Source of the DNA: Halobiforma nitratireducens JCM 10879
Lineage (GTDB): Archaea > Halobacteriota > Halobacteria > Halobacteriales > Natrialbaceae
Length of the DNA stretch: 64,000 nt
Direction: 5' to 3'
NCBI RefSeq assembly: GCF_000337895.1
Contig: NZ_AOMA01000049.1
Coordinates: 1 to 64,000, forward strand
Below the pieces are notes generated by a model. That model saw only the letters and a list, made by a program, of their open reading frames with translations, was not told the origin of the DNA and made no database searches. The translations under genes were made by a program, and so were the position numbers. Shown piece by piece: positions 18,414 to 39,379 of the stretch; position 1 is the stretch's first letter, and each line of letters starts with the position of its first letter.

Positions 18414-19406
18414 TCACTTCTCGTCGCCCGTGCCGTCGTTGCTGTCCGGCATCGTCGAGAACCGCCGCACGGCCGACATATCCGCTCGCTTCGAGGGTGA
18501 GGGCGCGACCGTGGAGTGACGAGCCGCGCCGTCCGGCGACTCTCGTCCGCTCGAGCCCAAGTCCGGGTCGAGGAGGTCGTCGTCTTCGCTCTCGGCCGTC
18601 GCGCCTTCACCACCGAGTCGACCCTCGTGGTCGAGTTCGTTTGCCTCTGGGTCGCTCTCGCTGGCGTCGTCCCTGTCGCCCTCTCCCTCCGTGTCAGCTT
18701 CTCCCCCGCCGATCGCCTCGAGTCCCTCCTGGAGGCGTTCGACCCCGTCACCGAAGTTAGCGATGTCCGACTCGAGTGCGTCGCGGAGTCGATCCTCGAC
18801 CTCCACCTCAGGGCCGGTCGTCGCTTCGTCTTCTGTGTCTTCGACTTCGGGGTCGATTCCGTCACCGTCGTCGCCAGCCGTCGGTTCGTCGTCCACCGAC
18901 TCCCCTCTCCGTTCGTCTTCCACCGATCGGTCGTGTTCTGCTTTCCCGGCCTCGTTGTCGCCGAACTCGTCGCCATCGTCGCCCTCGTCACCCTCGTCGT
19001 CCTCGGTAACCGCTCGCAGCCCCGACGTGGCCGCGCCGATCTCCGCTTCCTCCTCGTCGGACCGATCCGCGAGGCGCGCGAGACTGAGCAATCGCTCCAG
19101 GTCTTCGACCGCGTCCGGATCGCCCCTGGCGATCGCATCCGGCATCGACGCCGGCTCCGACCCGTCCGGGAGCGTGTCGAGTCCGACTGCCTCGAGCAAC
19201 GCCGACGGATCGGCAGTCGCCACGAGGGTGTCGGCACGCTCGGCCGCCTCGAGGAGGGGGTCCGCCGCTGGCTCGCCCCCGCTTTCCGCGTCGCGTTCGG
19301 TCGCACTATCGCGGTCGCTCGAAACGAGCCGCTCGCCGACTGCGTCGGCCGCCTCGAGAAGTTCCGCCACTCGCTCGTCCGTGGGTTCGGTCCGGGACTG
19401 GTTCAT
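18414..19406 (-). CDS. Acidic low-complexity protein, fourth gene of an unknown cluster
   Basis: This 330-residue protein of unknown function begins MNQSRTEPTDERVAELLEAA. Residues 62-115 form a compact, probably folded segment (ADPSALLEAVGLDTLPDGSE, then IARGDPDAVEDLERLLSLAR) that looks conserved rather than low-complexity. A long Asp/Glu/Gly-rich stretch (about 125-200) follows, then a second helical part (EVEDRLRDALESDIANFGDG) and an acidic tail with a Ser/Arg end. There is no signal peptide or transmembrane helix. It is last of four co-oriented acidic genes separated by 2-45 nt, so probably one operon. Confidence 0.75.
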   Translation of the reverse strand: MNQSRTEPTDERVAELLEAADAVGERLVSSDRDSATERDAESGGEPAADPLLEAAERADTLVATADPSALLEAVGLDTLPDGSEPASMPDAIARGDPDAVEDLERLLSLARLADRSDEEEAEIGAATSGLRAVTEDDEGDEGDDGDEFGDNEAGKAEHDRSVEDERRGESVDDEPTAGDDGDGIDPEVEDTEDEATTGPEVEVEDRLRDALESDIANFGDGVERLQEGLEAIGGGEADTEGEGDRDDASESDPEANELDHEGRLGGEGATAESEDDDLLDPDLGSSGRESPDGAARHSTVAPSPSKRADMSAVRRFSTMPDSNDGTGDEK

Positions 19407-19451
19407 ATCGGATACCGCGCTCGCCGCGCTTTGTCTCGTCTCGTCCGTGAG

Positions 19452-20414
19452 CTAGCCCGCGTTCGCGGCCGCATCTGCCTCTTCGTCCGTGTCCGTGTCT
19501 GCATCACTGTCGTTTTCGCCACCGCTTTCACCCTTGCCCTTACTCTCACTCTCACCGTCGTCTTCCGTCACCGTCTCGATGATCTCGTCGGTCATCTCCG
19601 CCCGGCTCAGGTTCGCTTTCACGTCGACGTCTTTCGCGACCGACTGCAGGTCCTCGTAGGCCATCACTCCGAGGAAGTCCGCGAGGGTCTCGCGTCTGAG
19701 GTCCTCGAGTTCGTCGGCGGACGGCCCTTCCTGTTTCTCCTCGGCTGGCGCTGCGTCGGCGTCGGCCGCCTCCGGTTCGTCAGCCTCGTCTGTCACTTCT
19801 GCTGTGTCCGCGGCGTCGGCCTCCTCGGCGGGTTCGGCGTCGCTGTCGCCGCTCTCGTCTTCGGGTTCTCCCTCGTCCATCTCTTCGTCCGTTTCTCTCT
19901 CGTCCATCTCTTCGTCCGTTTCTCTCTCGTCCACCTCTTCGTCCGTATCGACCAACGCCGTCTCACCGGCTGCATCTTCCGCCACCGACTCGAGTGACTC
20001 CCGAACGCGTGCCTCCTGAAACGCTTCGCGTACGCCGTCACGGATCGCCGACGTGAGTGCGGACCGAAGCGCCTGGCCTTCGCTGTCCTGGTGCGCTTCG
20101 TCCTCGTCTTCACCCTCGTCTGGAGTCGACTCCGAAGCTGTCTCGCCGTCGTCATCGGCGGTTTCTCCCAGCTCCCGGGACAACGTCTCGTGGACGTTCC
20201 GGCCGATCGAGGCCCCGAACTCGCGGCCGATCCGCTCGCCGAACCGCCGGCCGACAGCCGCGCCGATCTCGTCTGCGTCGATCTCGTCCTCGAGACTCCC
20301 GTCGCCGAGCAACTCCTCGACGCCGACCTGATTGCTCACCTCGTCGGCGACGACCCCTTTCAGGTCCGTCCCGTCGCTCACGGCGACCACCTCGGGGCCG
20401 CGTGGGCTCGACAT
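19452..20414 (-). CDS. Acidic glycine-zipper protein with a C-terminal SAP-like segment
   Basis: The protein has 320 residues. Residues 51-71 form a perfect GxxxG ladder (Gly 51, 55, 59, 63, 67, 71) within GAAVGRRFGERIGREFGASI. Before it, VEELLGDGSLEDEIDADEIG closely matches the segment before the zipper of the next gene, so the two share a domain. The middle is very acidic, with a 9-residue repeat (DERETDEEM). Residues about 235-285 (LADFLGVMAYEDLQSVAKDV, then LSRAEMTDEIIETV) resemble a SAP/Rho-N helix-extension-helix. The function is unknown. The zipper suggests oligomerisation or membrane contact; this is inference. Confidence 0.75.
   Translation of the reverse strand: MSSPRGPEVVAVSDGTDLKGVVADEVSNQVGVEELLGDGSLEDEIDADEIGAAVGRRFGERIGREFGASIGRNVHETLSRELGETADDDGETASESTPDEGEDEDEAHQDSEGQALRSALTSAIRDGVREAFQEARVRESLESVAEDAAGETALVDTDEEVDERETDEEMDERETDEEMDEGEPEDESGDSDAEPAEEADAADTAEVTDEADEPEAADADAAPAEEKQEGPSADELEDLRRETLADFLGVMAYEDLQSVAKDVDVKANLSRAEMTDEIIETVTEDDGESESKGKGESGGENDSDADTDTDEEADAAANAG
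19869..19950. repeat. 27-nt tandem repeat encoding an acidic nonapeptide
   Basis: About three copies of a 27-nt unit close to gtccatctcttcgtccgttt encode repeats of DERETDEEM in the acidic glycine-zipper protein. Confidence 0.8.
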
Positions 20415-20441
20415 CGACAGTGTCGTACGACGGCGATACCG

Positions 20442-21065
20442 CTACTCTGCATCGTTTTCGTCGGCGTTGTCTGTTTCCGCCTCCGATTCCGTCTCCGATT
20501 CCGATTCTTCCTCCGCCCCTTCTTCGGACTCCGAACTCGAGGGGTCGTCGCCTTCGCTTTCGGCCTCGGGTTCGCTCTCGTCGCTGCCGCCCTCGGCTGT
20601 CTCCTCTTTGTGTTCGTCTTCCTCGCTCTCTTCCGGTTTCTCCTCGGCTTCTTTTTTCTCGTCTTCGCTCTCTTCGCTCTCCTCGTTTTTCTCCTCTCCG
20701 CCGTCGGCGTCTTCCTCGTCGTCGGTTTCGTCCGCGTCTACCGAGTCCGGTTCCGGTTCCGGTTCCGGTTCCGGTTCCGGCTCCGGCTCCGCTTCGTCTT
20801 CTTCCGTCCCGAGCAACTCGTCGACGGTCAACTCGCCAACCGAGCGGCCGATACTCTCACCGACTTTTCTCCCGACGACCGAACCGATCAGCCCGCCGAG
20901 CGCCTCACCCAGCGGCTGGTCGTCGTCGATCTCGTCTTCCCACTGCGTTCCGTCGACGAGTTCGGCGATGTCGATGTTCTCGGCGACTTCCTCGTAGTCG
21001 ATTCGTCCGGCTAACGATTCCGTAGTCGAACCCGCCTCCGTCGTAGTGCTGGCTTCGTCACTCAT
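20442..21065 (-). CDS. Acidic glycine-zipper protein (paralogue of the neighbouring gene)
   Basis: The protein has 207 residues, beginning MSDEASTTTEAGSTTESLAG. Residues 53-77 form a perfect glycine zipper with Gly every fourth position (53, 57, 61, 65, 69, 73, 77; GEALGGLIGSVVGRKVGESI). The preceding IAELVDGTQWEDEIDDDQPL aligns with the neighbouring protein's VEELLGDGSLEDEIDADEIG. Residues from about 88 to the end are almost entirely Glu/Asp/Pro/Ser, including a Pro-Glu dipeptide run. The function is unknown. It begins 2 nt downstream of the 399-residue gene's stop. The folded N-terminus plus disordered acidic tail suggests a self-associating protein. Confidence 0.75.
   Translation of the reverse strand: MSDEASTTTEAGSTTESLAGRIDYEEVAENIDIAELVDGTQWEDEIDDDQPLGEALGGLIGSVVGRKVGESIGRSVGELTVDELLGTEEDEAEPEPEPEPEPEPEPDSVDADETDDEEDADGGEEKNEESEESEDEKKEAEEKPEESEEDEHKEETAEGGSDESEPEAESEGDDPSSSESEEGAEEESESETESEAETDNADENDAE
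20749..20790. repeat. 6-nt repeat encoding a Pro-Glu run
   Basis: At least six copies of ggttcc/ggctcc in a row encode alternating Pro-Glu in the 207-residue acidic protein. Confidence 0.75.
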
Positions 21066-21067
21066 AC

Positions 21068-22267
21068 TTATGCTTCGGCCTGTGATTCCGTGCCCGACGG
21101 CTCGTCCTGTTGGTCACGATCCTGTCTCTGTCCCTGTTGTTCTTCGACCTGCTCGAGTAGCGTCCTGACGACCTGACTGACTGCCGTCGCGATGAGTTCC
21201 TCGATCGGCAGCCCGGGCACGACGCCAGCAAGTTTCTCCTTTGCCCAGCCGGCAGCCCCGGAGAGACGCTGCCGTATCCTGCCGACCGCACGGGAGAGGG
21301 GGCCGGCCCTCTCCTCATCCTCACCTTCGCCCTCCGCGTCCGGCTCCGGCGACTCTTCGTCCGCTTCGGCTTCCTCCTCGGCCTCCGCTTCGCCGTCCCG
21401 ATCACCGGGCCACAGTTGGCCAAGCAGTTTCGCGGGCGTGCTCGTCAGTCGAGCGAGCAGGTCGCCCGGCTTGCTCGCCAGGGAGCGCAGCCGCTCGGTG
21501 ACGCCACCTGCCAGCGAACGAAGCCACTCCTTGGGCTTTCCGAGCAACGACTTGGCCTTGTTCAGCAGCGCTCTCGGCCCGTCGAGCAGTCCCGATACAG
21601 CCGAAAGCAGGTTTCCGAGCAGGTTGTTCTCGCCGGGACGAGCCGATACGTCGAGCGTCACCGGGTTCAGGTTGACCTCGAGGCCGAGCAGGTCCAGATA
21701 CAGCCCGTCGAGATCGAGGTGGAGCACGCCGGAAGCGTCCTCGCTCTCGTAGACGGTTTCGGCGTCGTCGGCGTGACCGTCCTCGCGGTCGTCTTCTGAG
21801 TCGTCGTCGCTCTCGGGGCTCTCTGGAGCCGTTTCTTCGCTGGTCTCGCCCTCTTCGGGAGCCGTCTCTTCGTCGGTCTCGTCTTCGTCGTCTCCCTTGC
21901 CTTCGTGCTCTGCCGTCTCCGCCGGTGTGTCGTCGTCTTCGTCTTCGTCTTCGTTTTCGTCTTCGTTTTCGTCAGGTTCCGACTCCGCGTGGCTGTCGTC
22001 CTCGGGTTCGACCTCGTCCTCGTGTCCGTTTTCGCCCTCGGGATCGTCCCTCTCGAGGCCCTCGCCTTCGTCGGTCTCTGCTGCCGACTCGGACTCGCCG
22101 TCGCTTCCGCTGGCCGCTTCTCGCTCCTGGATTTCCGCCTGCCCACCGTCGGTCAGTAATCTATCGCCCAGTTTCGCCTCCCGATCGCCGCGTAGGTGTC
22201 GGGGTCGTTGCGGATCGCCGATCGGCGCGGCATCCGAACGCTCCCCGGAGCCGTCTCCTGAGCCCAT
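21068..22267 (-). CDS. Acidic protein with a conserved LLGNLL-type core, first gene of the unknown cluster
   Basis: The protein has 399 residues. Residues 52-178 are an extreme Glu/Asp tract. Residues 181-230 form a distinct hydrophobic core (VLHLDLDGLYLDLLGLEVNL, then NPVTLDVSAR, NNLLGNLLSAVSGLLDG) that I remember as a recurring segment in uncharacterised haloarchaeal and bacterial proteins. Residues 231-290 are basic and amphipathic (KSLLGKPKEWLRSLAGGVTE). A second acidic tract and a helical end (GWAKEKLAGVVPGLPIEELI) follow. It has no signal peptide. It starts 82 nt downstream of the PQQ-propeller gene, so it could be on the cobalamin transcript or have its own promoter. Confidence 0.75.
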   Translation of the reverse strand: MGSGDGSGERSDAAPIGDPQRPRHLRGDREAKLGDRLLTDGGQAEIQEREAASGSDGESESAAETDEGEGLERDDPEGENGHEDEVEPEDDSHAESEPDENEDENEDEDEDDDTPAETAEHEGKGDDEDETDEETAPEEGETSEETAPESPESDDDSEDDREDGHADDAETVYESEDASGVLHLDLDGLYLDLLGLEVNLNPVTLDVSARPGENNLLGNLLSAVSGLLDGPRALLNKAKSLLGKPKEWLRSLAGGVTERLRSLASKPGDLLARLTSTPAKLLGQLWPGDRDGEAEAEEEAEADEESPEPDAEGEGEDEERAGPLSRAVGRIRQRLSGAAGWAKEKLAGVVPGLPIEELIATAVSQVVRTLLEQVEEQQGQRQDRDQQDEPSGTESQAEA

Positions 22268-24092: not shown

Positions 24093-25313
24093 CTACAAGG
24101 TCTCCTGGACCAACTCACTCACGAGCCGTCCGTCGACGAGGTGGTCCCCGACGATCCGATCGGCGTCGCTCTCGTCGACATCGCCGTACCAGACGCTGTC
24201 GGGATAGACGGCGACCGTCGGCCCGTCCCCGCACTGTCCCAGACAGGACGACCGGGTGATCCGGGCGTCACAGTCGTCGGCGTCCCGGGCCGCCTGTCGA
24301 AGTCGCTCGAGAACGGCCGGTGCGCCCATCTCCGCACACGTCCGGTTGGTACAGACTGCGACGTGATTCGCCGGCGCGTCGTGGCTGTGGGGTTCGTCGT
24401 CGATGTCCTCGCGATCCGCGTGACTCTCCCGGTGGGTGAGTGCCCGGAGCATCGCCCGCGCACCGCCGACGTCTTCCTCGTATCCCTCGAGACCGACTTT
24501 GTACTTGCAGGTGTCACAGGACATCTCGACGCTGTCGGTGCGGGCCTCCTGCCAGCGGTCCGCGAACACGTCGAGGAGCCGCGAGTCGGTGCCGAGCGGA
24601 TCACCGGCGAGGGCCTCGACGTAGGGGTAGTCGTCGTCGAACTCGGCCGTCCACTCCCGAACGCGGCCAGTGAGTACACCGTCGCCGAGCATGTACGGGA
24701 TCACGGCGACGGCGTCGGGACGGTGCTTCGAGAGGTCGTGTAGCGTCTCTTCCAGGGTCGGCTCCGTGACGCCGATGAACGTCGGCTCGACGCGGGAAAA
24801 CGGTCGCCCTTCGTGGAGCAGCCGCGCGAGTTTGTGGACGTCGGCGTTCGAGTCCGGGTCGCTCGAGCCTCGGCCACAGAGGACGACGGCGAGGTCGTCG
24901 GTCTCCCGGTCGACGCCGAGTTCCGTTTCGACGGCCGCGACGCGGTCGTCGAGCACCTCGAGGATCGCCGGGTGAATCCCCAGGTGTCTGCCGTTGTGTA
25001 TCTCGAGGTCGTCGTGGCTCGCACGGGCCCGTTCGATCGCCAGTGGCACGTCGTTTTTGACGTGACCCGCGGCGAACAGCGAGCAGTGGACGACCGTCAC
25101 AGCCGAGACGACCGACGCGAGATCGGCGATCGCGTCCTCGATCGACGGCTTCGCGAGTTCGAGAAACGCGGCGTCGACCGGGACGCCGAGCCGTGACTCG
25201 AGGCCGGCGGCAAGCTCCCGGACCTGTTCGTTCGACTTCTCGCGTCGGGACCCGTGCCCGACCAGCAACACGGCTTCGTCGTCGACGCTGGACGGGGTCG
25301 ACGCTTCCGTCAC
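24093..25313 (-). CDS. cbiX: Sirohydrochlorin cobaltochelatase CbiX fused to a 2Fe-2S thioredoxin-like ferredoxin domain
   Basis: The protein has 406 residues. CbiX inserts cobalt into sirohydrochlorin at the start of the anaerobic corrin route. Two chelatase half-domains are visible: residues 14-130 (LLVGHGSRREKSNEQVRELA, with HCSLFAAGHVKNDVPLAIER) and 140-270 (VVLCGRGSSDPDSN, then VIPYMLGDGVLTGRVREW). A Cys pair follows (SCDTCKYKVGLEGYE). The C-terminal 95 residues (VCTNRTCAEMGAPAVL, ITRSSCLGQCGDGPTVAVYP) have the CxxxxC...CxxxC pattern of 2Fe-2S thioredoxin-like ferredoxins. The start is GTG at 25313, overlapping the previous stop (GTGA). Confidence 0.93.
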   Translation of the reverse strand: MTEASTPSSVDDEAVLLVGHGSRREKSNEQVRELAAGLESRLGVPVDAAFLELAKPSIEDAIADLASVVSAVTVVHCSLFAAGHVKNDVPLAIERARASHDDLEIHNGRHLGIHPAILEVLDDRVAAVETELGVDRETDDLAVVLCGRGSSDPDSNADVHKLARLLHEGRPFSRVEPTFIGVTEPTLEETLHDLSKHRPDAVAVIPYMLGDGVLTGRVREWTAEFDDDYPYVEALAGDPLGTDSRLLDVFADRWQEARTDSVEMSCDTCKYKVGLEGYEEDVGGARAMLRALTHRESHADREDIDDEPHSHDAPANHVAVCTNRTCAEMGAPAVLERLRQAARDADDCDARITRSSCLGQCGDGPTVAVYPDSVWYGDVDESDADRIVGDHLVDGRLVSELVQETL

Positions 25314-26155
25314 GGCTGCTCACCTCTGCCGGTCGGCTCGTCCCGGTTTCCGGTCTCGTCGCCGTCGGTGAGGCCGACCTGTTCGAGACTGCGCTCAAGC
25401 TTTCGACGGCGACTGCGCGCGTAGAGGCCGGTTTCCGCACAGCCCTCGTAGACCCAGGTTCCGAACGCCGGAGCCGCCTGGTCGGCGACGCCGAACCAGT
25501 AGCCGCCCGAACTCGTCTCCGAGAGCTCCTCGACCGGCACGTCGACGGGACAGTCCGCGATCAGGTCCCGGATACGCTCGAGAAGCGCCGGGTCCTCGTG
25601 GACGAACGACACCCCGACGGTGCCACTCGAGGACTTGAAACAGACCGTGCCACAGCTCTCGAGCAGGCCCCGAAGGAGCGTACGCCGATGGTCGGCGAAC
25701 GCGCCGAACCGGTAGTTCCCGCGACCGTCGACGGGGAACCCGAGCGTAGACTGGCGACCGAGGAGTGTTCCAGTGTCGTCCCCGTCACCGTCTGGATCGG
25801 TCGGGGCCGGGGTCGGAGTCGAGGTCGAGGTCGAGGTCGAGGTCGGGGACGGAGTCGAGACCGACAGCGACAGCGTATACTCCGTCTCGGTCCGCGTGAT
25901 CGACGCGTCGTGGGCATACTCGCGGCGCGTCGTCTCTCGCTCGAGGTCGCCCCCTCCAGCGATCGCCGCGAGCACGCGAACGGCACGCTCGTCGCCAGTG
26001 ACGATCTCGAGTTGTCCCTCAGAGACGCGACCCCCGCCAGCGACGTGTCCCCAGAAGTACGCCGAAGCCGGGTGGCCGGCCAGGGGATCGATGGGAACCT
26101 CGATTTCGACTGGCTCCTCTATGAGGTCGCCTTCCGGGTCGGCGGCGTCGCTCAT
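25310..26155 (-). CDS. Unknown protein with two LAGLIDADG-like halves, inside the cobalamin operon
   Basis: The protein has 281 residues. Residues 20-60 (GHPASAYFWGHVAGGGRVSE, then QLEIVTGDERAVRVLAAIAG) and about 170-215 (HRRTLLRGLLESCGTVCFKS, then VGVSFVHEDPALLERIRDL) have the spacing of the two repeats of a LAGLIDADG endonuclease fold. The catalytic acidic positions are Gly and Cys, so cleavage is unlikely. A Ser/Thr/Pro repeat linker lies between (about 95-135). The ATG at 26155 overlaps the ferredoxin stop (ATGA), and the stop overlaps cbiX. A domesticated nucleic-acid-binding protein, as WhiA is, would fit; the fold is my inference. Confidence 0.7.
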   Translation of the reverse strand: MSDAADPEGDLIEEPVEIEVPIDPLAGHPASAYFWGHVAGGGRVSEGQLEIVTGDERAVRVLAAIAGGGDLERETTRREYAHDASITRTETEYTLSLSVSTPSPTSTSTSTSTPTPAPTDPDGDGDDTGTLLGRQSTLGFPVDGRGNYRFGAFADHRRTLLRGLLESCGTVCFKSSSGTVGVSFVHEDPALLERIRDLIADCPVDVPVEELSETSSGGYWFGVADQAAPAFGTWVYEGCAETGLYARSRRRKLERSLEQVGLTDGDETGNRDEPTGRGEQP

Positions 26156-26418
26156 CCATCTACCTCCTCGACGACGATCGCGTCCGTCGGACACGCCGTC
26201 GCGGCCTGTCTCGCCTCCTCGAGGCGGTCGTCGTCGAACGTGGCGACGACGCGTTCGGCGTCGTCGTCGACCGATCCCTCGCAGTCGTAGACCGGGTCCG
26301 CGCCGGGGTCGATCTTCGCCAGCCCGTCGGCACCCTCGACGAAGCGAGGATCGCGGGTCAGACAGGCGAATATCCCGTCGCAGGCGTCTTTCTCGATCGT
26401 GACTTCGTATCGTGGCAT
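26152..26418 (-). CDS. Ferredoxin (single Fe-S cluster type)
   Basis: This 88-residue protein begins MPRYEVTIEKDACDGIFACL. Cysteines lie in ACDGIFAC near the N-terminus, in VYDCEGS and in ATACPTDAIVVEE at the C-terminus, which is the layout of small 3Fe-4S/4Fe-4S ferredoxins. It sits between cbiH1 (1-nt gap) and the LAGLIDADG-like gene. It probably supplies electrons for a redox step of corrin synthesis, such as ring contraction or cobalt reduction. That role is inferred from position. Confidence 0.88.
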   Translation of the reverse strand: MPRYEVTIEKDACDGIFACLTRDPRFVEGADGLAKIDPGADPVYDCEGSVDDDAERVVATFDDDRLEEARQAATACPTDAIVVEEVDG

Positions 26419-26419
26419 C

Positions 26420-27463
26420 TCAGTAGTCGTACTTGGTCTCGTATCCGCGCGGTCGCACCATCCGATCGTCCCAGACGTAGGTGTCCTCGGTGCCGACGAC
26501 GATCGTTGTCGTCATGTCGATCACGTCGCGTTCGCCGAACGATTCGAGTTCGCCCAGTTCCGTGATCACTACCTCCTCGTCGTCCCGGCCTGCGCCGTGG
26601 ACGATCCCGACCGGCGTCTCCTCGTCGCGGTGAGCGAGCAGGATTTCACAGGCTTTCTCGAAGTTCTCGCGACGCTTGCGGCTCCAGGGGTTGTAGATCG
26701 TAATCGTAAACCCCTCCTTGGCCGCCGCGTGCAACCGCGACTCGATCTCGGGCATCGGGACCAGATGGTCCGACAGCGAGATCGAGACGGTGTCGTTGAC
26801 CAGTGGTGCACCGAGGCGGGCACCACAGGACTGGGCGGCCGGCACGCCCGGCACCACCTCGAAGTTGACCATCGAGGCCGTCGCACCCTTCGATTCGAGA
26901 ATCTCGAGTGCCAGTCCCGCCAGCGCGTAGACGTTGGGGTCACCGCTGCCGACGATCGCCACGTCGTTGCCAGCGAGCGTGCGGTCGATCGCCTCTTCGG
27001 TCCGCGAGACTTCGCCACACATCGGCGTGTCGTAGATCTCGTCGGCACCCTCGGTGATCGCGTCGGGCAGCAGTTCGATGTAGGTCGTATAGCCGACGAT
27101 GTGTTCGGCCTCGTGCAGTGCCGTCTTCGCGCGCTCGGTCATCCCTTCCGGCTGACCGGGGCCGAGCCCGACAGCCGTGAGTTGGCCGGGGTCGGCGTCG
27201 AAGTCGGCGACGGTTGCGCCGACCTCCTGTTCGTTCGAGTCGCTCGAGTCGTCGGAACTCGAGGCACCACACGCCGACCCGCTCGAGTCGTCAGTTCCGT
27301 CCGAGCCGCCACACGCCGACTCGCTCGAGTCGTCGGAACTCGAGGCACCACACCTCGAGCTCGAACTGTCCGGGTCGGATTCGGCGCTCGTCGCGCCGCA
27401 ACTCGCTGTCGATTCGTCCGTGTCTGCGTCCGCGTCCGTCTCCGTATCTGTCTCCGTGCTCAT
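26420..27463 (-). CDS. cbiH1: Cobalt-factor III C17-methyltransferase CbiH, copy 1, with a Cys/Ser repeat tail
   Basis: This 347-residue SAM-dependent methyltransferase acts in ring contraction at C17. The tetrapyrrole methylase core starts at about residue 92 (LTAVGLGPGQPEGMTERAKT). It contains IVGSGDPNVYALAGLALEIL, the VVPGVPAAQSCGARLGAPLV loop and GIVHGAGRDDEEVVITELGE. The first 80 residues are Ser/Asp/Thr-rich with Cys-Gly at positions 22, 38, 51 and 65, evenly spaced. No such tail occurs in copy 2. It is co-transcribed between cbiH2 (6-nt gap) and the ferredoxin. Confidence 0.93.
   Translation of the reverse strand: MSTETDTETDADADTDESTASCGATSAESDPDSSSSRCGASSSDDSSESACGGSDGTDDSSGSACGASSSDDSSDSNEQEVGATVADFDADPGQLTAVGLGPGQPEGMTERAKTALHEAEHIVGYTTYIELLPDAITEGADEIYDTPMCGEVSRTEEAIDRTLAGNDVAIVGSGDPNVYALAGLALEILESKGATASMVNFEVVPGVPAAQSCGARLGAPLVNDTVSISLSDHLVPMPEIESRLHAAAKEGFTITIYNPWSRKRRENFEKACEILLAHRDEETPVGIVHGAGRDDEEVVITELGELESFGERDVIDMTTTIVVGTEDTYVWDDRMVRPRGYETKYDY
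27235..27360. repeat. Imperfect tandem repeat encoding the Cys/Ser tail of CbiH1
   Basis: Units of roughly 40 nt containing gagtcgtcggaactcgaggc recur and encode repeats of the type CGASSSDDSSES. Confidence 0.75.
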
Positions 27464-27469
27464 GTCTGG

Positions 27470-28345
27470 TCAGAAGTCGTCGACGTCACGCCCGCCACGC
27501 GGGGTGACGAGGTACGTTCGATCGGCGTTGCTCCAGGTTTCGGTCTCGTGGGTCCCGATGATCAGCGAGGTGCCCATCCCCGACACTTTGTCGTCGTGGT
27601 CGGCGGCGTCGCCCAGCGTCGTGACGTGGTGGCTCTCGCCGTTACGGCCCGCGTCGGCGCGGCCCGCGTCGTTGACGATCGCGACGAGGGCGTCGTCAGT
27701 GCGTTCCTCGCGGACGATCTCGACCGCGCGCTCGTAGTTGCGCCAGCAGTTGTAGAGGACGATGACGAACTCCGAAACTGCGGCCGCCCGCAGTTTCTCC
27801 TCGATTTCGTCCCAGCCGCGCCACTTGTCCGACAACGAGATCGTACAGAAGTCGTTACACAGCGGCGCGCCGACGTTGGCAGCGCCACCGAGCGCGGCGG
27901 TCATACCGGGCACGACCTCGATGGGAACGTCCGTCGCGTCGTCCTCGTCGGCCATCTTGAAGATGAGGTCGGATTTGCCGTAGACCGACGGATCGCCGCC
28001 CGAGACGTGAGCGACGTCCCGTCCCTCGCGGACGTAATCGAACGCCGCGCGGGCGAGTTCGATCTGGCGTCCCATCGTGGAACGGACGATCTCCTGGCGA
28101 GCGCCGTCCTCGCGGGTCGCGACGCCGTCGTCGTCGACGGCCGACTCCGGCGGGAGCGTCCCGTCGGCCCGCAGGAACTCCTGGTAGAGACTCGAGGCGA
28201 TGACCACGTCGGCGGACTCGATGACCTGCTTTGCTCGCGCAGTCATGTGGGCCGGCAGTCCCGGCCCGATCCCGACGACATAGAGGGTGCCGTGGTCGTC
28301 CGGCGTCCCGTTGCCGGCGGAACCGGCGGCGTCGTCTGCGCTCAT
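27470..28345 (-). CDS. cbiH2: Cobalt-factor III C17-methyltransferase CbiH, copy 2
   Basis: This 291-residue tetrapyrrole methylase begins MSADDAAGSAG. The core opens with LYVVGIGPGLPAHMTARAKQ. It has the GDPSVYG motif (SGGDPSVYGKSDLIFKM) and the VVPGMTAALGGAANVGAPLC loop of CbiH/CobJ. The start at 28345 was selected because its ATG overlaps the cbiG stop (ATGA); an upstream extension would be antisense-like and basic. It probably acts in the same step as copy 1 or as a partner subunit. Confidence 0.92.
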   Translation of the reverse strand: MSADDAAGSAGNGTPDDHGTLYVVGIGPGLPAHMTARAKQVIESADVVIASSLYQEFLRADGTLPPESAVDDDGVATREDGARQEIVRSTMGRQIELARAAFDYVREGRDVAHVSGGDPSVYGKSDLIFKMADEDDATDVPIEVVPGMTAALGGAANVGAPLCNDFCTISLSDKWRGWDEIEEKLRAAAVSEFVIVLYNCWRNYERAVEIVREERTDDALVAIVNDAGRADAGRNGESHHVTTLGDAADHDDKVSGMGTSLIIGTHETETWSNADRTYLVTPRGGRDVDDF

Positions 28346-29337
28346 CGGCCGATCGCCACCGTTACCTCGTCCTCGTAACTGCACTTCTCGAGGACGAGTT
28401 CCTGTTCGCGTCCGCCGGCGATCGCACTCGCCTCGCAAACGCCGGGCCAGCCGATCAGCTCCTTCGATTTCGAGGGGGTCGGCCCCTCGTGTTCGAAGAG
28501 GGTTTCCTTGTCGAAGGTGACGACGCCCAGGTCGAGTTCCTGTGCGGCCTCGAGAAGGCCTTCCTCGTCGGCTTTTCGGGTTGCGGTCCCGACGAACTCG
28601 ACGTCGTCGAGGCCGTACTCGGTTCGCTCGAGTGTGTCTTCCCAGGCGGCGACGAACGTCTCCGCGTCTGCGCCGGAGACGCTTCCCGTCCCGAGAACGA
28701 TCCCGTCGTCGGCGTTTCGCTTGAGCACCGTCACGTCGTCGCCGACGAGTACGGCACGGGGACCGTCGAGCCGCGCGACTGGACCCAGATCGTCGTCGAG
28801 GACGGCGAGGTTAGTCTGGACGGTCGAGTCGCCGTTGACGACGTGGGTATCCATCGCCTTCGCCCGGGACTCGACGCCCTGTTTCCCCGCCGCTTCCGAG
28901 GCGGTCGTCATCGCCGGTACGGCACCCATCGTCGCGAGGTCCTGAGCGACCTGATTCGCACCGTGGTGACCGCCCGTGATCGGGATCGCCCACGTCAGCT
29001 CCTCGTCGACGACACAGATCGCGGGGTCGTCCCACTTGTCCTCGAGCAGGCCCGCTGTCTTGCGCATCGCGATGCCGGAGGCCATCAGCCCGACGAAACA
29101 GTCGTACTCGCCCCAGTGTTCTTCGAAGACATCGCCGTGGTACTCGAGGATATCGATCAGATCGTAGCGGTCCGCGAGTTCGTTCCGGATGTCCTCGGCG
29201 GTCTCGAGCTTCCGCTCGAAGGCGACGATCGCGATCTCCTCGGCGACTTCGCCGTCGGAGTCTGGCGTCGAACAGTGACCGCCGTCGTTCGTACTCGAGT
29301 CGTCCGTGCCGTCCGTCGTCTCTGTTTCCGAGCTCAT
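28342..29337 (-). CDS. cbiG: Cobalt-precorrin-5A hydrolase CbiG
   Basis: This 331-residue protein opens the delta-lactone of cobalt-precorrin-5A and releases acetaldehyde in the anaerobic pathway. After an acidic tail (1-30) comes the N-terminal domain (IAIVAFERKLETAEDIRNEL, with DCFVGLMASGIAMRKTAGLL and PITGGHHGANQVAQDLATMG). The C-terminal domain follows (VLGTGSVSGADAETFVAAWE, EFVGTATRKADEEGLLEAAQ, CEASAIAGGREQELVLEKCS). Full-length CbiG architecture is present. It is co-transcribed downstream of cbiF, 30 nt away. Confidence 0.94.
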   Translation of the reverse strand: MSSETETTDGTDDSSTNDGGHCSTPDSDGEVAEEIAIVAFERKLETAEDIRNELADRYDLIDILEYHGDVFEEHWGEYDCFVGLMASGIAMRKTAGLLEDKWDDPAICVVDEELTWAIPITGGHHGANQVAQDLATMGAVPAMTTASEAAGKQGVESRAKAMDTHVVNGDSTVQTNLAVLDDDLGPVARLDGPRAVLVGDDVTVLKRNADDGIVLGTGSVSGADAETFVAAWEDTLERTEYGLDDVEFVGTATRKADEEGLLEAAQELDLGVVTFDKETLFEHEGPTPSKSKELIGWPGVCEASAIAGGREQELVLEKCSYEDEVTVAIGR

Positions 29338-29367
29338 TATCGCATCTCGATCGTCGTGGATTCGGTT

Positions 29368-30267
29368 TCAGTCATCGGTCGACTCCGCTTCGTCGGTGGT
29401 GTCGGCGGCTCCGCTGTTGGCCCAGTCGCCGTAGAGGTACGAGCGCTCGTAGCCCGCCCCCGTCACGGCGTCGCCGACGACAACCAGCGCGGAGGCGCGG
29501 TACCCCGCCGTCTCGACTTTCTCCGCGATGTCGTCGATCGTTCCGAGGAGCACGTCCTCGTCGGGCCAGGAAGCGTGGTAGATCACTGCGACCGGCGTCT
29601 CGGGGTCGTGGCCGTCCTCGAGCAGTCGGTCCATCGTCTCCCGGACGGCGTGGGTCCCGAGGTAGATGCAGGTCGTCACGTCCCCCATACCGACGAACTC
29701 GGAGACGTGATCTTGCTCCTCGCTGAGGGTCTTCCCCTGGGGTCGGGTGAACGCGACGTGATTCGAGACCTCGTTGAGGGTGAGCTGAGTCCGAAGTGTC
29801 GCGCTCGCGGCGAACGCCGACGTCACGCCCGGGACGAAGTACGTCGGGACGCCCTCGCTCTCGAGGGCGTCCATCTGCTCGAGGGCTGCCCCGTAGATCG
29901 CGGGATCGCCGCTGTGGAGCCGAACGACGGTCCGGCCGTCCTCGTAGGCGTCTCTCATCAGTGGCACGAGCTCCTCGAGGTCCTTGCCGACGGAGTTTAC
30001 GAGGTCGGCCCCGTCGCAGTAGGCCTCGAGCAGTTCGCTGTTGACCAGCGATCCCGCGTGAACGACGAGATCGGCGTCCTCGAGCAGTTCCTTCCCCGCG
30101 ACGGTCAGCAGCCGCGGGTCGCCGGGTCCAGCGCCGACGAACGGCACTCCCTCGCCTCGGTCGCCGGCGTTGCGTTCGAATACCCTGTCGTCGACACCGT
30201 CGATACTGTCGGGGTCGGCGCTATCGTTGCTGTCGTTGCCGTCGTCGCTATCGTTCGATCCCATCAT
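29368..30267 (-). CDS. cbiF: Cobalt-precorrin-4 C11-methyltransferase CbiF
   Basis: This 299-residue tetrapyrrole methylase has an acidic leader (1-38), then VPFVGAGPGDPRLLTVAGKE, VVRLHSGDPAIYGAALEQMD, TYFVPGVTSAFAASATLRTQ and AFTRPQGKTLSEEQDH, all typical of CbiF/CobM. It methylates C11 before ring opening by CbiG. The ATG overlaps the cbiL stop by one base (TGATG). The tail is acidic. Confidence 0.94.
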   Translation of the reverse strand: MMGSNDSDDGNDSNDSADPDSIDGVDDRVFERNAGDRGEGVPFVGAGPGDPRLLTVAGKELLEDADLVVHAGSLVNSELLEAYCDGADLVNSVGKDLEELVPLMRDAYEDGRTVVRLHSGDPAIYGAALEQMDALESEGVPTYFVPGVTSAFAASATLRTQLTLNEVSNHVAFTRPQGKTLSEEQDHVSEFVGMGDVTTCIYLGTHAVRETMDRLLEDGHDPETPVAVIYHASWPDEDVLLGTIDDIAEKVETAGYRASALVVVGDAVTGAGYERSYLYGDWANSGAADTTDEAESTDD

Positions 30268-31181
30268 CAGTACCAGTCCCGGTCACGGTCACAGTCGCCG
30301 CTCTCGAGGCCTTCGGCCCGCTCGAGGGACACGTCCGCCGGCGATTCCGATCGTCTCTCGTCGGGCTTTGAGTCCGTGCTCACGTCGGCTTCGGGAGCCG
30401 CCCGGTCGTCGGTCGAGGCCGCCGGGGAGTCGGGACCGGTCGCTGCCGGCCCCGCCTCTCGTTCCGACTCGGCCCGGGTACCTGAGCCGTCGTCGTCGAC
30501 TTCGAACGCCGCCGTCGCCGGCTCGACCTCGAGATCGGCCCGTTCGGCGTACGCGAGGGTGTAGTAGTCCCGTTCGGCGATCTCGTCGGGATCGTGTGTG
30601 ACGACGGTTTCGCCCTGTTCCATGAACAACCGACGGCCGTAGGTCACCTCGTAGCCGGCGTCGACGAGTCCCTCGTGAGTCGCGGGTGCGTCGGTGACCT
30701 TGAACAGGATCAGACGGTCCGGGCCGGTCGGGCTCGCACCGCCGTCGGCCTCCCGCAGCGCCAACCCAGCGCCGGCTTCGACTTCGACGCCCAGCGCCGT
30801 CGCGAACGCGGTGACCGCGCTGACCCCGGGGACGACCTCGAGGTCTACGTCTGGATGGAACGTCGCGAGCGTTCGCCGGAGGTGCCCGAACGTCGAGTAG
30901 ACGTTCGGATCGCCGAGCGTGACGAACGCGACGTCGTCCTCGGCGGCCGCCGTGGCGACCTCCGCCGCGGCCTCTTTCCAGGCGTTTCGGAGCTTCTGCT
31001 CGTCTCGAGTCATCGGGAACTCGAGGTCGCCGATCGCCGACTCGTCGACGTGCTCGAGCGCGACGGATCGGGAGAGCCGTCCCGGGGAGTAGACGACGCT
31101 CGCGTTCTCGAGGACCGCCTTCCCGCGAACGGTCACGAGGTCGGCGTCGCCGGGTCCGAGGCCGACGCCGTACACGGTCAC
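30267..31181 (-). CDS. cbiL: Cobalt-factor II C20-methyltransferase CbiL
   Basis: This 304-residue methylase begins MTVYGVGLGPGDADLVTVRG. It contains VAFVTLGDPNVYSTFGHLRR and EVVPGVSAVTAFATALGVEV, the CbiL/CobI pattern, and LILFKVTDAPATHEGLVDAG. The enzymatic core ends near residue 225 and is followed by about 80 residues of acidic Ser/Pro-rich tail. It acts early, after cobalt insertion by CbiX. The ATG overlaps the cbiT stop by 4 nt. Confidence 0.94.
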   Translation of the reverse strand: MTVYGVGLGPGDADLVTVRGKAVLENASVVYSPGRLSRSVALEHVDESAIGDLEFPMTRDEQKLRNAWKEAAAEVATAAAEDDVAFVTLGDPNVYSTFGHLRRTLATFHPDVDLEVVPGVSAVTAFATALGVEVEAGAGLALREADGGASPTGPDRLILFKVTDAPATHEGLVDAGYEVTYGRRLFMEQGETVVTHDPDEIAERDYYTLAYAERADLEVEPATAAFEVDDDGSGTRAESEREAGPAATGPDSPAASTDDRAAPEADVSTDSKPDERRSESPADVSLERAEGLESGDCDRDRDWY

Positions 31182-31774
31182 TGCGGGTCACCTCCGGCCG
31201 CGGCGTCGGCCGGCGTCGACCCGTCGTCGGTCGCGCTCCCGACGAGTACGTACACCGGATTGTTCGCGTCGAAACTCGTCGCACCGGCGAGCTCGTACCC
31301 CTGGCTCACCTGTACCTGCAGTACCTCCTCGAGCACCCCGCGCTCGCGGAAGGCCGTGACCGCTTTCCCGGCGACCTCGAGCCGGGAGACGTTCATCACG
31401 ATCCGATCGACGCCCGTCTCGACGGCGTGATCGAGCACGGCCTCGAAGTTGCGACTCCCACCGAGGAAGACGGCGTCGGCGTCGGCGGGCAACCCTTCGG
31501 GCGCTTCCGCGTTCCGAAGCTCGACCGTGGCCTCGACGATGTCGTCGTTGGCCGCGAGGTTTCGTTCGGTCGTCTCGAGCCGGTCGGGCTTGCGCTCGAT
31601 CGCGGTCACGTGACCGGCCTCCCGCGCGGCCTCGACGGTCACGGCACCCGTACAGGAACCGACGTCGACGACGTGGTCGTCCGGCTCGAGCGCGAGCTTC
31701 GAGCGGACGACGGCCCGTATCTCGGGTTTCGTCGGGCCGGCCTTCGCATCGTGTGGTAACGCGATGGGTGGCAT
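31178..31774 (-). CDS. cbiT: Cobalt-precorrin-6B C15-methyltransferase (decarboxylating) CbiT
   Basis: This 198-residue Rossmann-fold methyltransferase has the SAM motif HVVDVGSCTGAVTVEAAREA (about 36-55), an acidic residue in VTAIERKPDRLETTE, then DAVFLGGSRNFEAVLDHAVE. It methylates C15 and decarboxylates the C12 acetate. The ATG at 31774 was chosen; a GTG directly before it would add one residue. It is the first gene of the long cobalamin operon, so the upstream region should carry its promoter. Confidence 0.93.
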   Translation of the reverse strand: MPPIALPHDAKAGPTKPEIRAVVRSKLALEPDDHVVDVGSCTGAVTVEAAREAGHVTAIERKPDRLETTERNLAANDDIVEATVELRNAEAPEGLPADADAVFLGGSRNFEAVLDHAVETGVDRIVMNVSRLEVAGKAVTAFRERGVLEEVLQVQVSQGYELAGATSFDANNPVYVLVGSATDDGSTPADAAAGGDPQ

Positions 31775-32084
31775 CACCTGTGGAAACAGAGTCCTGCCCT
31801 AAAACAATTTTGTTTGTTGTAGGACAATCTGGATTGCCCAGATGGAGTTGGAGTAGAGAAAGTTTCGTTGTGAGGCGGCTCGATAACCGGAATCTCTCTC
31901 GAGCGAACCGGACTGACGGCCGGCGTTGCCGCCGGTGTTGTGACGGCACTGTCGGAGAGACTAGGCTCGAAGCCACCGACGAGGACGCAGCATCGTGATC
32001 GGTCCGTCGGGCAGCGGTTCGGCGTCGATGGCCGACCGGACCAGGCAGCGATCCGTCACTCGATGGCCGATCGGACAACGACAG
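31775..32084 (-). promoter_or_regulatory. Promoter/operator region of the cbiT operon
   Basis: This spacer contains two adjacent inverted repeats: AAACAA-TT-TTGTTT (31802-31815) and TTGT-AGG-ACAA (31817-31827). They lie about 30-55 nt upstream of the cbiT start, overlapping the expected TATA/BRE zone. The word TGTTGTA (31815-31821) recurs in the cobN/chlID promoter. The remainder up to the cbiA stop at 32085 shows no gene I can support. Confidence 0.5.
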
Positions 32085-33434
32085 TCAGTCGGTGAGGCCT
32101 TCGAGGAATCGATCGAACGCGCCGCTTTCTGGATGAACGTGGGCGTACGTTCCCAGCGAGGCGTACTCCGTCAGTCCGTCGTGTTCGCCGTCGATCCCGT
32201 CACCACGGACCGTCTCGAAGGCAAAGCGTGCGTCGTCGTCGACCGACGCCCTCGAGTAGTGAAACTCGTGGCCACGAAGCCGCCCCCCATCGTTCGCGGT
32301 CAGCGTGCCGTCGACCGCCTCGAGTTCGACGTGGTCGAGTGCCTGGTACCGGTCGTGCATAGTTACGTCGGCCGGGAGGATACCCGCCATCTCGTAGCGG
32401 TCGCCGTCCGCGGTCGTCAGCGACCGGCTCATTGCCATGAGGCCGCCACACTCCCCGAAGACGGGGAGGCCGTCGCTCGCCAGCCGACCGAGTTCCGCGA
32501 GCGTATCTGTCGACTCGAGCGCCGACGCGTGAAGTTCGGGGTATCCGCCGGGGAGATAGACGGCATCGCAGTCGGGGACGGGGTCGCCGGCGACCGGCGA
32601 GAACGTCACGAGGTCGGCCCGTTCGCGAAGCCGCTCGATCGTCGCCGGGTAGCGAAAACAGAACGCGGCGTCGTCCGCGACGGCGACGGTGGCGTCGACG
32701 GCTTCGGTATCCCTCTCACCTGTGGGTTCCGGCGGCACAGCCGCGGCGTCGACCAGCCGTTCGGTCTCGAGAGTGTCTGCTGCTTCCCGGAGCGCGTCCC
32801 GCGGGAGCGACGCCTCCGCGCCCATCTCGAGGCCGAGGTGCCGGTCGGGAATCTCGAGGTCGTCGTTCGGCGGAATCCGGCCGAAGTACTCGAGTTCCGA
32901 CGGAAGCGCGTCCCTGATTCCGCTCTCGTGGCGGCCGCCGTGGGCGCGCTGGGCGACGATCCCCGCGACCTCGATATCGCGACCGACCCGATCGGCGTAC
33001 TCCTGAAACCCCAGCGCGGTCGCCGCGACGCTTTCCATCCCCGCACTGGCGTCGACGACCAGTATTACCGGGAGATCGAGCGTCTCGGCGACCATAGCGG
33101 TGCTCGATCCGTCGCCGTCGTACAGTCCCATGACGCCCTCGACGACGCAGATAGCGGGGGACGATCTCCCCCGGGCGGATGGGTGTGACCCGTCGGCGTC
33201 GCCTCCACCGCGGGCGTAGTTGCGCCGGAGACCGTCCTCGCCCTCGAGCCACGGGTCGAGGGTCCGCGACGGCCGGCCCGCGACCGCCTCGTGGTGGCTC
33301 GGATCGATGAAGTCTGGACCAGCCTTCGCCGGCTGGACGTCGTAGCCGGCGTCCTGGAGCGCCTGGAGGACCGCAAGCGTCGCGACGGTCTTGCCGACGC
33401 CGGAGCTGACGCCCCCGAGGACGAACCCCTTCAT
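32085..33434 (-). CDS. cbiA: Cobyrinic acid a,c-diamide synthase CbiA
   Basis: This 449-residue enzyme amidates the a and c side chains of cobyrinate with glutamine and ATP. The N-terminal ATPase domain begins MKGFVLGGVSSGVGKTVATL (P-loop variant), with VQPAKAGPDFIDPSHHEAVA and CVVEGVMGLYDGDGSSTAMV. The C-terminal glutamine amidotransferase domain has the catalytic Cys in GLPVFGECGGLMAMSR and the His in RGHEFHYSR. The start at 33434 coincides with the conserved strand; the upstream in-frame extension is Arg/Ser-rich and non-conserved. It is separate from the cbiT operon. Confidence 0.95.
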   Translation of the reverse strand: MKGFVLGGVSSGVGKTVATLAVLQALQDAGYDVQPAKAGPDFIDPSHHEAVAGRPSRTLDPWLEGEDGLRRNYARGGGDADGSHPSARGRSSPAICVVEGVMGLYDGDGSSTAMVAETLDLPVILVVDASAGMESVAATALGFQEYADRVGRDIEVAGIVAQRAHGGRHESGIRDALPSELEYFGRIPPNDDLEIPDRHLGLEMGAEASLPRDALREAADTLETERLVDAAAVPPEPTGERDTEAVDATVAVADDAAFCFRYPATIERLRERADLVTFSPVAGDPVPDCDAVYLPGGYPELHASALESTDTLAELGRLASDGLPVFGECGGLMAMSRSLTTADGDRYEMAGILPADVTMHDRYQALDHVELEAVDGTLTANDGGRLRGHEFHYSRASVDDDARFAFETVRGDGIDGEHDGLTEYASLGTYAHVHPESGAFDRFLEGLTD

Positions 33435-33644
33435 CGGTCTTTCCTCCGGGTTCGACTGTCCGCTCGCGCTTGGCCTCTCGCTCGTGTTCGCCGCCGGACT
33501 CGAGCCCAGCCGCCGTCCGCGTTCGTCTCTCCCATTGTCGTTTCGTTCGTACAATCGTACTTGAACTCGTTGGTGGCCCCGGCTCGAGTCGAGGCTCGGC
33601 GCACCGACGAACTTAACCGGCCGAATCCACTATTGCGCTTCCCG

Positions 33645-33800
33645 ATGACCGACGACACCGAACACCACCTCCGAGAGGCGCTTCGACACCTCGAAGCCGC
33701 TCGAGACGGCGACCTGCGCAAGACCAACGCCGTCGCGGTCGAGGAGGTGTCGGATACCATCACCGCAGTTCTCCAGGAGTACGAGGAAGACGGGCAGTAG
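33645..33800 (+). CDS. Small acidic helical protein, function unknown
   Basis: This 51-residue protein, MTDDTEHHLREALRHLEAAR and onward, ends VLQEYEEDGQ. It is predicted to be almost all helix, soluble and acidic, and has no Cys. It is the only plus-strand gene in this part of the cobalamin locus, and its stop lies 4 nt from the cbiE stop on the other strand. Codon usage looks like that of the neighbours. I do not recognise a family; a conserved haloarchaeal small protein is likely. Confidence 0.65.
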   Translation: MTDDTEHHLREALRHLEAARDGDLRKTNAVAVEEVSDTITAVLQEYEEDGQ

Positions 33801-33804
33801 CGTT

Positions 33805-34626
33805 TTACGACGGCGTCTCGCCGTCGGTCGGCTGTCGAACGGCGAACACGATCAAGTCCGAGAACGGCGTCTCGTCCTGGCCGTCGCCGCCGGCGTACCG
33901 CGAGAGTTCCGCGAGCGTGAATCGGTGGATCGTCTCCGCGTCGTGGGTCAACCGCTCGAGGACGAGCGCCTCGAGGTCCCCACTGGCTCCGCGGTCGAGC
34001 AAGAACTCGGCGAGGTCGCCGGGCATCCGATCGAACGGCCGTGGCAGGGCAAGCAGGTGTCGGCCGTCGTCGACGACGGCCCGAGCGAGACGCTCCATCT
34101 CGGCCTCGAGGTCGCCGCTTTTGTGCAGCGTGACGAACTCGGTGCTCTCCATCGGCGTCCGGGCGCGGCTGGCGGCCACCTGGAGCGAGGAGATACCGGG
34201 GACGACCCGGACCGGCGTCCCGGGTGCGGCGCTCGCGACGGCGTCCTGAACTTTTCCGACGAACTGGTACCCCGAATGGTTCGGATCGCCCATCGCGACG
34301 GCGACTCCCGTCTCGCCGGCAGCGACCCGGCGACCGAACGTCTCGAGGGCGTCGGCCTCGTCGCGGTACCCACACGACAGGTGCTCGCAGTCGGCAGTCG
34401 TCACGTCCGCGACGTAGTCGACGACCGTCTCGAACCCGACGAGCACGTCGGCCTCTCGGATCGCTCGCTCCCCGCGAGGTGTGAGATACTCGCGGTTCCC
34501 GGGGCCAATGCCGACGACGTGGACGGGGTCCCGTTCCTCCGCCCTGGTGGACTCGAGAGCCGCTTCCGGCTTGGCAGCCGCGAACGTCGCCGGATCGGGC
34601 CCGGCGTCGAGGTCGTAGTCGCTCAT
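33805..34626 (-). CDS. cbiE: Cobalt-precorrin-7 C5-methyltransferase CbiE
   Basis: The protein has 273 residues. After a 35-residue leader the tetrapyrrole methylase core starts VHVVGIGPGNREYLTPRGER, followed by VAVAMGDPNHSGYQFVGKVQ, VRVVPGISSLQVAASRARTP and LLALPRPFDRMPGDLAEFLL, the CbiE pattern. It works with CbiT on the C5/C15 methylations but is encoded separately here. The ATG overlaps the cbiC stop by 4 nt. Confidence 0.92.
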   Translation of the reverse strand: MSDYDLDAGPDPATFAAAKPEAALESTRAEERDPVHVVGIGPGNREYLTPRGERAIREADVLVGFETVVDYVADVTTADCEHLSCGYRDEADALETFGRRVAAGETGVAVAMGDPNHSGYQFVGKVQDAVASAAPGTPVRVVPGISSLQVAASRARTPMESTEFVTLHKSGDLEAEMERLARAVVDDGRHLLALPRPFDRMPGDLAEFLLDRGASGDLEALVLERLTHDAETIHRFTLAELSRYAGGDGQDETPFSDLIVFAVRQPTDGETPS

Positions 34627-35366: not shown

Positions 35367-35377
35367 CGTAGAGATAC

Positions 35378-39337: not shown

Positions 39338-39379
39338 CGCGTTTTTAAACCTCTGTTGTATTAGCGCAACCATGGTTGC
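39338..39379. promoter_or_regulatory. Divergent cobN/chlID promoter with a 14-bp palindrome on the chlID start codon
   Basis: Only 34 bp separate the two start codons. The box GTTTTTAAAC (39341-39350) suits a TATA for leaderless chlID (ATG at 39372). GCAACCATGGTTGC (39366-39379) is a perfect palindrome containing the chlID ATG. GTTG (39355-39358) with CAAC (39367-39370) adds another inverted pair. TGTTGTA (39354-39360) is shared with the cbiT upstream region. Confidence 0.55.

Follow-up and report, generated by a model that had tools for sequence, protein, structure and literature searches.

To which cellular system do four adjacent genes for hyperacidic proteins belong? The genes, here called P1 to P4, lie on the reverse strand of a 64,000-nucleotide stretch of the Halobiforma nitratireducens JCM 10879 genome (contig NZ_AOMA01000049.1; the whole analysed stretch is referred to as the window). 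A first-pass annotation, made from the letters alone, had guessed at an assembly of surface, vesicle or condensate type that matched no known system. Our comparative analyses indicate that P1-P4 very probably belong to the gas-vesicle (gvp) system of haloarchaea. We lean towards the view that they form an accessory module, so far unrecognised, of that system's GvpC-less form and act on the GvpA shell. Gas vesicles are cell flotation organelles that serve as ultrasound reporters; the list of their components was considered complete at ~8 to 14 Gvp proteins.

Four genes conserved as one cassette

P1-P4 are co-directional, with transcription order P1-P2-P3-P4 and intergenic gaps of 2, 27 and 45 nt; the open reading frame (ORF) positions given in the first-pass annotation were reproduced exactly. 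The long Asp/Glu tracts it had noted in all four products are reflected in their composition: Asp and Glu make up 29.6%, 42.5%, 34.4% and 31.5% of P1, P2, P3 and P4, and the computed net charges are -84, -79, -87 and -77, so all four are hyperacidic. Searches of the whole proteins against Pfam, NCBIfam and PADLOC returned nothing above cut-off; no curated family covers them, in agreement with the earlier label 'unassigned'. Matches to BUD22, ClfB and SspH were acidic-tract artefacts, and a defence-system identity was rejected by the PADLOC search.

Among 61 genomes searched, P1 matched in 36, P2 in 35, P3 in 37 and P4 in 31. The homologues nearly always occupied a single locus in the order P1-P2-P3-P4, and almost every Natrialbaceae genome examined showed this. 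Across 84,980 species, an independent scan recovered 52 loci, all haloarchaeal; each of them (52/52) had P1 together with P2- and P3-type zippers, and almost all had the P3 C-terminus and P4 as well. The proposal that the four genes are one system had been staked on homologues that are not scattered and zippers that are conserved, and both were found. It is thus well supported by comparison of genomes that P1-P4 form one conserved cassette, inherited together. The genes around it vary: BamB-like, DUF3209 and cobalamin genes adjoin it in some genomes, permeases or CobB-like proteins elsewhere. Because these neighbours change while the four genes remain together, we rejected the idea that the cassette belongs with the cobalamin, BamB-like or Usp genes next to it.

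A tblastn search of plasmids and phages with the P1 core gave no matches but was uninformative, since Halocatena and Haladaptatus plasmids in the same collection carry P1; a low-complexity filter probably hides P1 from this search. No bacterial P1 homologue was found in the 84,980-species scan, which used a single narrow peptide pattern; bacterial relatives may still exist.

Homologues within gas-vesicle clusters

An intact gvpO-N-A / F-G-H-I-J-K-L-M cluster lies elsewhere in the source genome, on contig 63 (L058) rather than on the contig of the cassette; Pfam confirmed A, H, K, M and O. The window copy is detached, with no gvp cluster beside it, as are the copies of most Natrialbaceae and of L111, L112 and L114. 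Elsewhere, in several families, the linkage is physical. In two Natrialbaceae loci (L120 and L121) the same-strand order is gvpA-gvpO-P1-P2-P3-P4, downstream of gvpAO; at five further haloarchaeal loci (L108, L110, L117, L122 and L124) P1 and one or two zipper genes occupy this place. P1-P2 are inserted between gvpH and gvpI, within the gvpF-M operon, at L109, L115, L116, L126 and L141, and the cassette adjoins gvpO in opposite orientation at L123. Outgroup loci L035, L038 and L039 have homologues inside gas-vesicle clusters, and L196 and L197 also belong to the loci in or beside such clusters.

The Halocatena salina cluster illustrates the arrangement, reading gvpF-gvpG-gvpH-P1-P2-extended GvpI-gvpJ-gvpK-gvpL. 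Here P1 (WP_247995710), P2 (WP_247995711) and the extended GvpI (WP_247995712), all annotated 'hypothetical protein', overlap by 4 bp. A single plasmid of Haladaptatus halobius has both a gvp cluster and, ~12 kb from it, the P1-P4 cassette (WP_227380731 to WP_227380728). On a Haloplanus plasmid, the gvp cluster follows the classical GvpC pattern and has no P1-P4. The guess at a vesicle-type assembly was a good one; the claim that it matched no known system was not supported, given homologues in or beside gvp clusters and co-occurrence with GvpA, and for the operon as a whole the gas-vesicle link had been missed.

Co-occurrence with GvpA and exclusion of GvpC

We drew 392 haloarchaeal genomes evenly from the order and searched them with profiles of the P1 core, the GvpA family (PF00741) and the Halo_GVPC repeat (PF05465), which matched in 138, 163 and 14 genomes, respectively (11 of the last with several repeats). 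P1 and PF00741 coincided in 135 genomes, with P1 only in 3, PF00741 only in 28 and neither in 226 (Fisher p 4e-72; here and below the tests ignore the relatedness of genomes). In these counts Natribaculum breve (G019) is PF00741-positive through gvpJ/M remnants only. Two of the three P1-only genomes have weak P1 matches and the third is 70% complete. Within the Natrialbaceae, both were present in 83 genomes, P1 only in 0, PF00741 only in 3 and neither in 10 (p 2.5e-11). Losses coincide even within a genus: three genomes of genus g9 (G089, G182 and G349) lack both P1 and gvp, and a fourth, G265, has lost P1, kept P2/P3 and carries a truncated gvpN.

The relation to GvpC is the reverse. P1 was present in none of the 11 GvpA-positive genomes having GvpC vs 135 of the 152 without it (p 6e-10), and the GvpC-less type is the commonest gvp type in the haloarchaea sampled. 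PF05465 had no match in the source genome or in cassette-bearing Natrialbaceae; one marginal single match occurred in the P1-positive G102. The possibility that P1-P4 are themselves GvpC was rejected, as they lack PF05465 repeats and have the wrong gene position: the place directly after gvpA, before gvpN/gvpO, is not theirs, and they are found downstream of gvpO, in the gvpH-gvpI interval or detached.

Domains of the four proteins

The zipper segments, the EDEID stretch preceding them, the LLGNLL core of P1 and the ADPSALLEAVGLDTLPDG block of P4 are all conserved in related genomes, and therefore are not local oddities. The coordinates of these and other features are collected in Table 1.

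Table 1. Features of the P1-P4 cassette, in window coordinates.
Feature	Position	Strand	Basis and remarks
P1	21068..22267	-	399 aa; ORF; orthologues in 36/61 genomes searched; N-terminal half acidic; 55-residue core and C-terminal helix conserved, with amphipathic repeats of 11 residues and an acidic linker between them
P1 core domain (VLHLDLDGLYLDLLGLEVNLNPVTLDVSARPGENNLLGNLLSAVSGLLDG)	21578..21742	-	Alignment; 138/392 haloarchaea
P1 five 11-residue basic amphipathic repeats	21410..21580	-	Periodicity analysis; net charge +8
P1 C-terminal conserved helix region (GPLSRAVG...LPIEELIATAVSQVVRTLLEQV)	21146..21304	-	Profile match
P2	20442..21065	-	207 aa; ORF; N-terminal glycine-zipper domain and Asp/Glu tail
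P2 glycine ladder (GEALGGLIGSVVGRKVGESIGRSVGE)	20832..20909	-	Invariant Gly columns in alignment
P3	19452..20414	-	320 aa; ORF; glycine-zipper domain, acidic middle, SAP-like C-terminus
P3 glycine ladder (GAAVGRRFGERIGREFGASIGRNVH)	20190..20264	-	Ladder/shuffling analysis
P3 C-terminal three-helix SAP/LEM/Rho-N-like domain	19563..19724	-	AlphaFold2, Foldseek
P4	18414..19406	-	330 aa; ORF; diverged relative of the extended GvpI found in GvpC-less gvp clusters
P4 N-terminal conserved domain (EAAERADTLVATADPSALLEAVGLDTLPDG...RLAD)	19065..19250	-	Alignment; common to gvpI-position proteins
P4 C-terminal double ST[VM] motif (HSTVAPSPSKRADMSAVRRFSTMP)	18417..18524	-	Resembles STMP/STVP end of GvpI

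P4 is related to a known Gvp protein. Its N-terminal domain aligns with that of the gvpI-position protein (hhalign probability 97.4%, E 1.2e-11), and at least two ST[MV]-type C-terminal motifs are present in 66 of 77 P4-type ORFs. The C-terminus of classical and extended GvpI reads NPTAxSTMP...STVP...YGxRF, and the GvpI of Natrialba magadii has an N-terminal extension of >200 residues (PMC3403918 for the extension); the terminal YGxRF part is absent from P4. Nor does P4 hold the GvpI gene position between gvpH and gvpJ, where there is a separate gvpI; it comes after P3. A relationship of P4 to GvpI of the GvpC-less gvp system is well supported at the sequence level, and the conserved-looking block recognised in P4 at first pass is indeed kept in relatives.

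P2 and P3 have Gly at every fourth residue, seven and six times, respectively, each ladder following a matching EDEID stretch as first described. Shuffled proteins reached the same ladder in 0 of 20000 trials for P2 and 1 of 20000 for P3. The P2 and P3 zipper profiles each match both ORFs at every full cassette locus; because each profile recognises both genes, P2 and P3 are paralogues. An unannotated, weakly P2-like glycine-zipper protein is encoded at L197:14700-15317, L206:12565-13323 and L207:10021-10668; in Haladaptatus halobius (Haladaptataceae) and two other f17-family genomes, its gene is flanked by a gvpO paralogue and gvpF.

Beyond its zipper, P3 ends in a domain that the earlier description had missed: three predicted helices with an AlphaFold2 confidence score (predicted local distance difference test, pLDDT) of 92. 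The nearest structures found by Foldseek are the SAP domains of DEK, FAN1 and 3'hExo, all at E > 0.5, the best E-value being only 0.57; against DEK SAP domains the TM-score reaches 0.76. No relative in the Protein Data Bank (PDB) was found by sequence. The same domain follows an acidic linker on a haloarchaeal ribosomal protein S3 (L037:9222-10169) and on an Hsp20-like protein (L036:9454-10050), and thus need not mean DNA binding.

The P1 core alignment covers 55 residues, with 81% mean column identity and 16 invariant columns; no PDB relative was found by sequence. The C-terminal helix profile matches in 35 of 36 P1 loci. The LLGNLL core and basic amphipathic helix had been recognised correctly, and the 11-residue repeat structure overlooked: the basic stretch shows 16 identities at lag 11 and a hydrophobic period of 11/3 beyond that of 2000 shuffles, and the repeats are predicted by AlphaFold2 to be helical at low-to-moderate confidence.

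A C-terminal domain resembling the P1 core (...LDLLGLQ...TAVAGPGNLLGNLLCAVAGLLD) was also seen in proteins of ~220-240 aa with a twin-arginine translocation (TAT) signal (RRTLLK / RRTVLK), at L118:10050-10700, L119:9447-10163, L133:9471-10133 and L134:9435-10160. The two that were searched had no Pfam family. Judged by sequence, the P1 core and the ends of these proteins appear to form a wider uncharacterised superfamily.

Surroundings of the cassette in the window

Upstream of the cassette lies a cobalamin-biosynthesis-like run (~24093-39445) that includes precorrin-methyltransferase-like genes and a CbiX/ferredoxin fusion; between this run and the cassette stand DUF3209 and a gene for a BamB-like beta-propeller. 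ARAGORN reported a tRNA at 36556-36634 (+) whose two-base anticodon is undetermined; this call is probably spurious.

A possible role at the GvpA shell

P1-P4 probably act in assembly or reinforcement of the GvpA shell, partly replacing GvpC. We favour this role because P1 has a basic helix with an 11-residue period in Natrialbaceae, which lack GvpC, P2 and P3 have GxxxG ladders, and P4 is GvpI-like. GxxxG ladders suit tight helix packing, and the zipper helices of P2 and P3 may pair with each other, with P1 or with shell proteins, whereby the module would multimerise. The basic repeats of Natrialbaceae P1 could run along GvpA's acidic outer helix in the manner of the 33-residue GvpC repeats; cryo-electron microscopy shows cyanobacterial GvpC as a chain of 33-residue helical repeats on GvpA outer helix alpha2, held via Glu52/Glu59 (PMC9994262). 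P4 might join an accessory-protein complex as GvpI does; GvpI pairs with GvpH, and its loss gives longer vesicles (PMC9501494). The long Asp/Glu tails would keep such a coat soluble at high salt. The window holds the detached copy of the cassette, and the matching gvpONA-FGHIJKLM cluster is on the other contig.

Several observations weigh against the shell-module reading. The AlphaFold2 model of whole P1 is poor (mean pLDDT 66), and a P1-like core also occurs in secreted haloarchaeal proteins with a TAT signal. Among P1 proteins, 38 of 65 from Natrialbaceae show significant 11-residue repeats, against only 2 of 27 from outside; since the repeats are mostly confined to this family, the ancestral function cannot have been shell binding by this route and must instead lie with the P1 core, the zippers and P4. 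The Fisher tests, too, take no account of how the genomes are related. Seventeen GvpA-positive genomes have neither P1 nor a Pfam-detectable GvpC, so some GvpC-less clusters do without the module; among the seventeen, the Natrialbaceae genome G010 has no cassette and a GvpC-type cluster whose GvpC gene the Pfam model missed. Natribaculum breve keeps the cassette although all that is left of its gvp cluster is a degenerate gvpJ/gvpM remnant (L064; G019:C1, ~3035100-3035900). For the Natrialbaceae named in PMC4390858 no gas vesicles are reported, and the gas-vesicle membership of P1-P4 is read here from genes.

In an unlikely alternative, the GvpA/J/M shell machinery is diverted by P1-P4 so that it builds some GvpA-based structure other than a flotation gas vesicle. 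Well-studied gas-vesicle producers have GvpC, and the classical Haloplanus plasmid cluster has no P1-P4. Reviews note, without explanation, that gas vesicles are not made by species whose 11 gvp genes look sufficient. The gvp-positive, gas-vesicle-negative species named in PMC4390858 are Halopiger xanaduensis, Haladaptatus paucihalophilus, Natrinema pellirubrum, Natrialba magadii and Natronobacterium gregoryi. All five are of the GvpC-less type, and the module is present at loci of Halopiger, Natrinema, Natrialba and another Haladaptatus species, so that diversion would explain their gas-vesicle-negative appearance. Clusters with P1-P4 are, moreover, intact across many genera, and thus are under selection for something. 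However, the absence of gas vesicles may only reflect laboratory conditions, and the core gvp genes are ordinary, 11 of them being sufficient for gas-vesicle formation (PMC4390858). A second GvpA-based haloarchaeal organelle, a non-buoyancy protein nanostructure built by the GvpC-less machinery and the module, seems to us slightly less probable again; if real, it would explain why dozens of gvp-positive genera look gas-vesicle-negative.

It is decidedly doubtful that the cassette is instead a regulator or quality-control module that replaces GvpD/GvpE and controls Gvp protein expression or turnover, with the SAP-like domain of P3 binding nucleic acid. Besides gvpC, Natrialbaceae-type clusters do lack gvpD and gvpE (PMC4390858; PMC3403918), and P3 does end in a SAP-like fold, but that match is weak and the domain, being shared with S3 and the Hsp20-like protein, may be a protein-interaction tail. 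P1, P2 and P4 show no DNA-binding family in Pfam or NCBIfam, and P4 is GvpI-like, not GvpE-like. Very improbable is passive linkage, in which the cassette has some unrelated role in the envelope or in stress and its association with gvp clusters is mere hitchhiking: the usually detached Natrialbaceae copies, adjoining BamB-like, cobalamin or Usp genes, and the cassette surviving in G019 alongside a decayed gvp cluster would fit it, but separate arrangements (downstream of gvpAO, at gvpH/gvpI, detached, on the same plasmid) all keep the association, gvp-free genomes also lack the cassette, including members of genera otherwise carrying both, and P4 is related to GvpI.

Under the shell-module reading, P1-P4 are probably a missing part of a widespread 'silent' GvpC-less gas-vesicle system: three families unannotated in the libraries searched and a second GvpI-like protein accompany this gvp type. 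They were overlooked because they are annotated 'hypothetical', consist mostly of acidic linker and, in Natrialbaceae, usually lie away from the gvp cluster; the gas-vesicle literature found (open-access papers only) does not mention them. The cassette makes the puzzle of gvp-positive, gas-vesicle-negative species genetically testable.

Comparison with known systems

The closest annotated zipper is Gly-zipper_Omp (PF13488), which like P2/P3 has a GxxxG ladder within a helix; the cassette zipper scores 12.5 against a cut-off of 25, below the Pfam gathering threshold, and the cassette protein, unlike Gly-zipper_Omp, has no visible signal peptide or lipobox. The helix-extension-helix domains of SAP, LEM and Rho-N share the predicted fold of the P3 C-terminus, with no sequence family match. 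Extended haloarchaeal GvpI has the N-terminal domain and double ST[MV]P-type C-terminal motifs in common with P4, which differs in lacking the YGxRF end, in being acidic rather than basic and in being an additional gene besides gvpI. GvpC is likewise acidic and associated with the GvpA system, and the 11-residue amphipathic repeat of Natrialbaceae P1 is one third of the 33-residue cyanobacterial GvpC repeat; no sequence similarity was found, however, the gene position is another, and GvpC and P1 occur in different genomes (0/11).

The nearest system as a whole is the GvpC-less gvp region itself. Published descriptions give it 11 gvp genes, an extended gvpI and one extra gene, with P1-P4 undescribed (PMC4390858, PMC3403918); a later review table lists gvpACNO for species of this type, in conflict with PMC3403918 and with our PF05465 search. 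Unlike that published region, Natrialbaceae P1-P4 are usually at another locus. P1-P4 homologues lie inside or beside GvpC-less regions, the type of Natrialba magadii, Natrinema, Halopiger and Haladaptatus, and co-occur with them.

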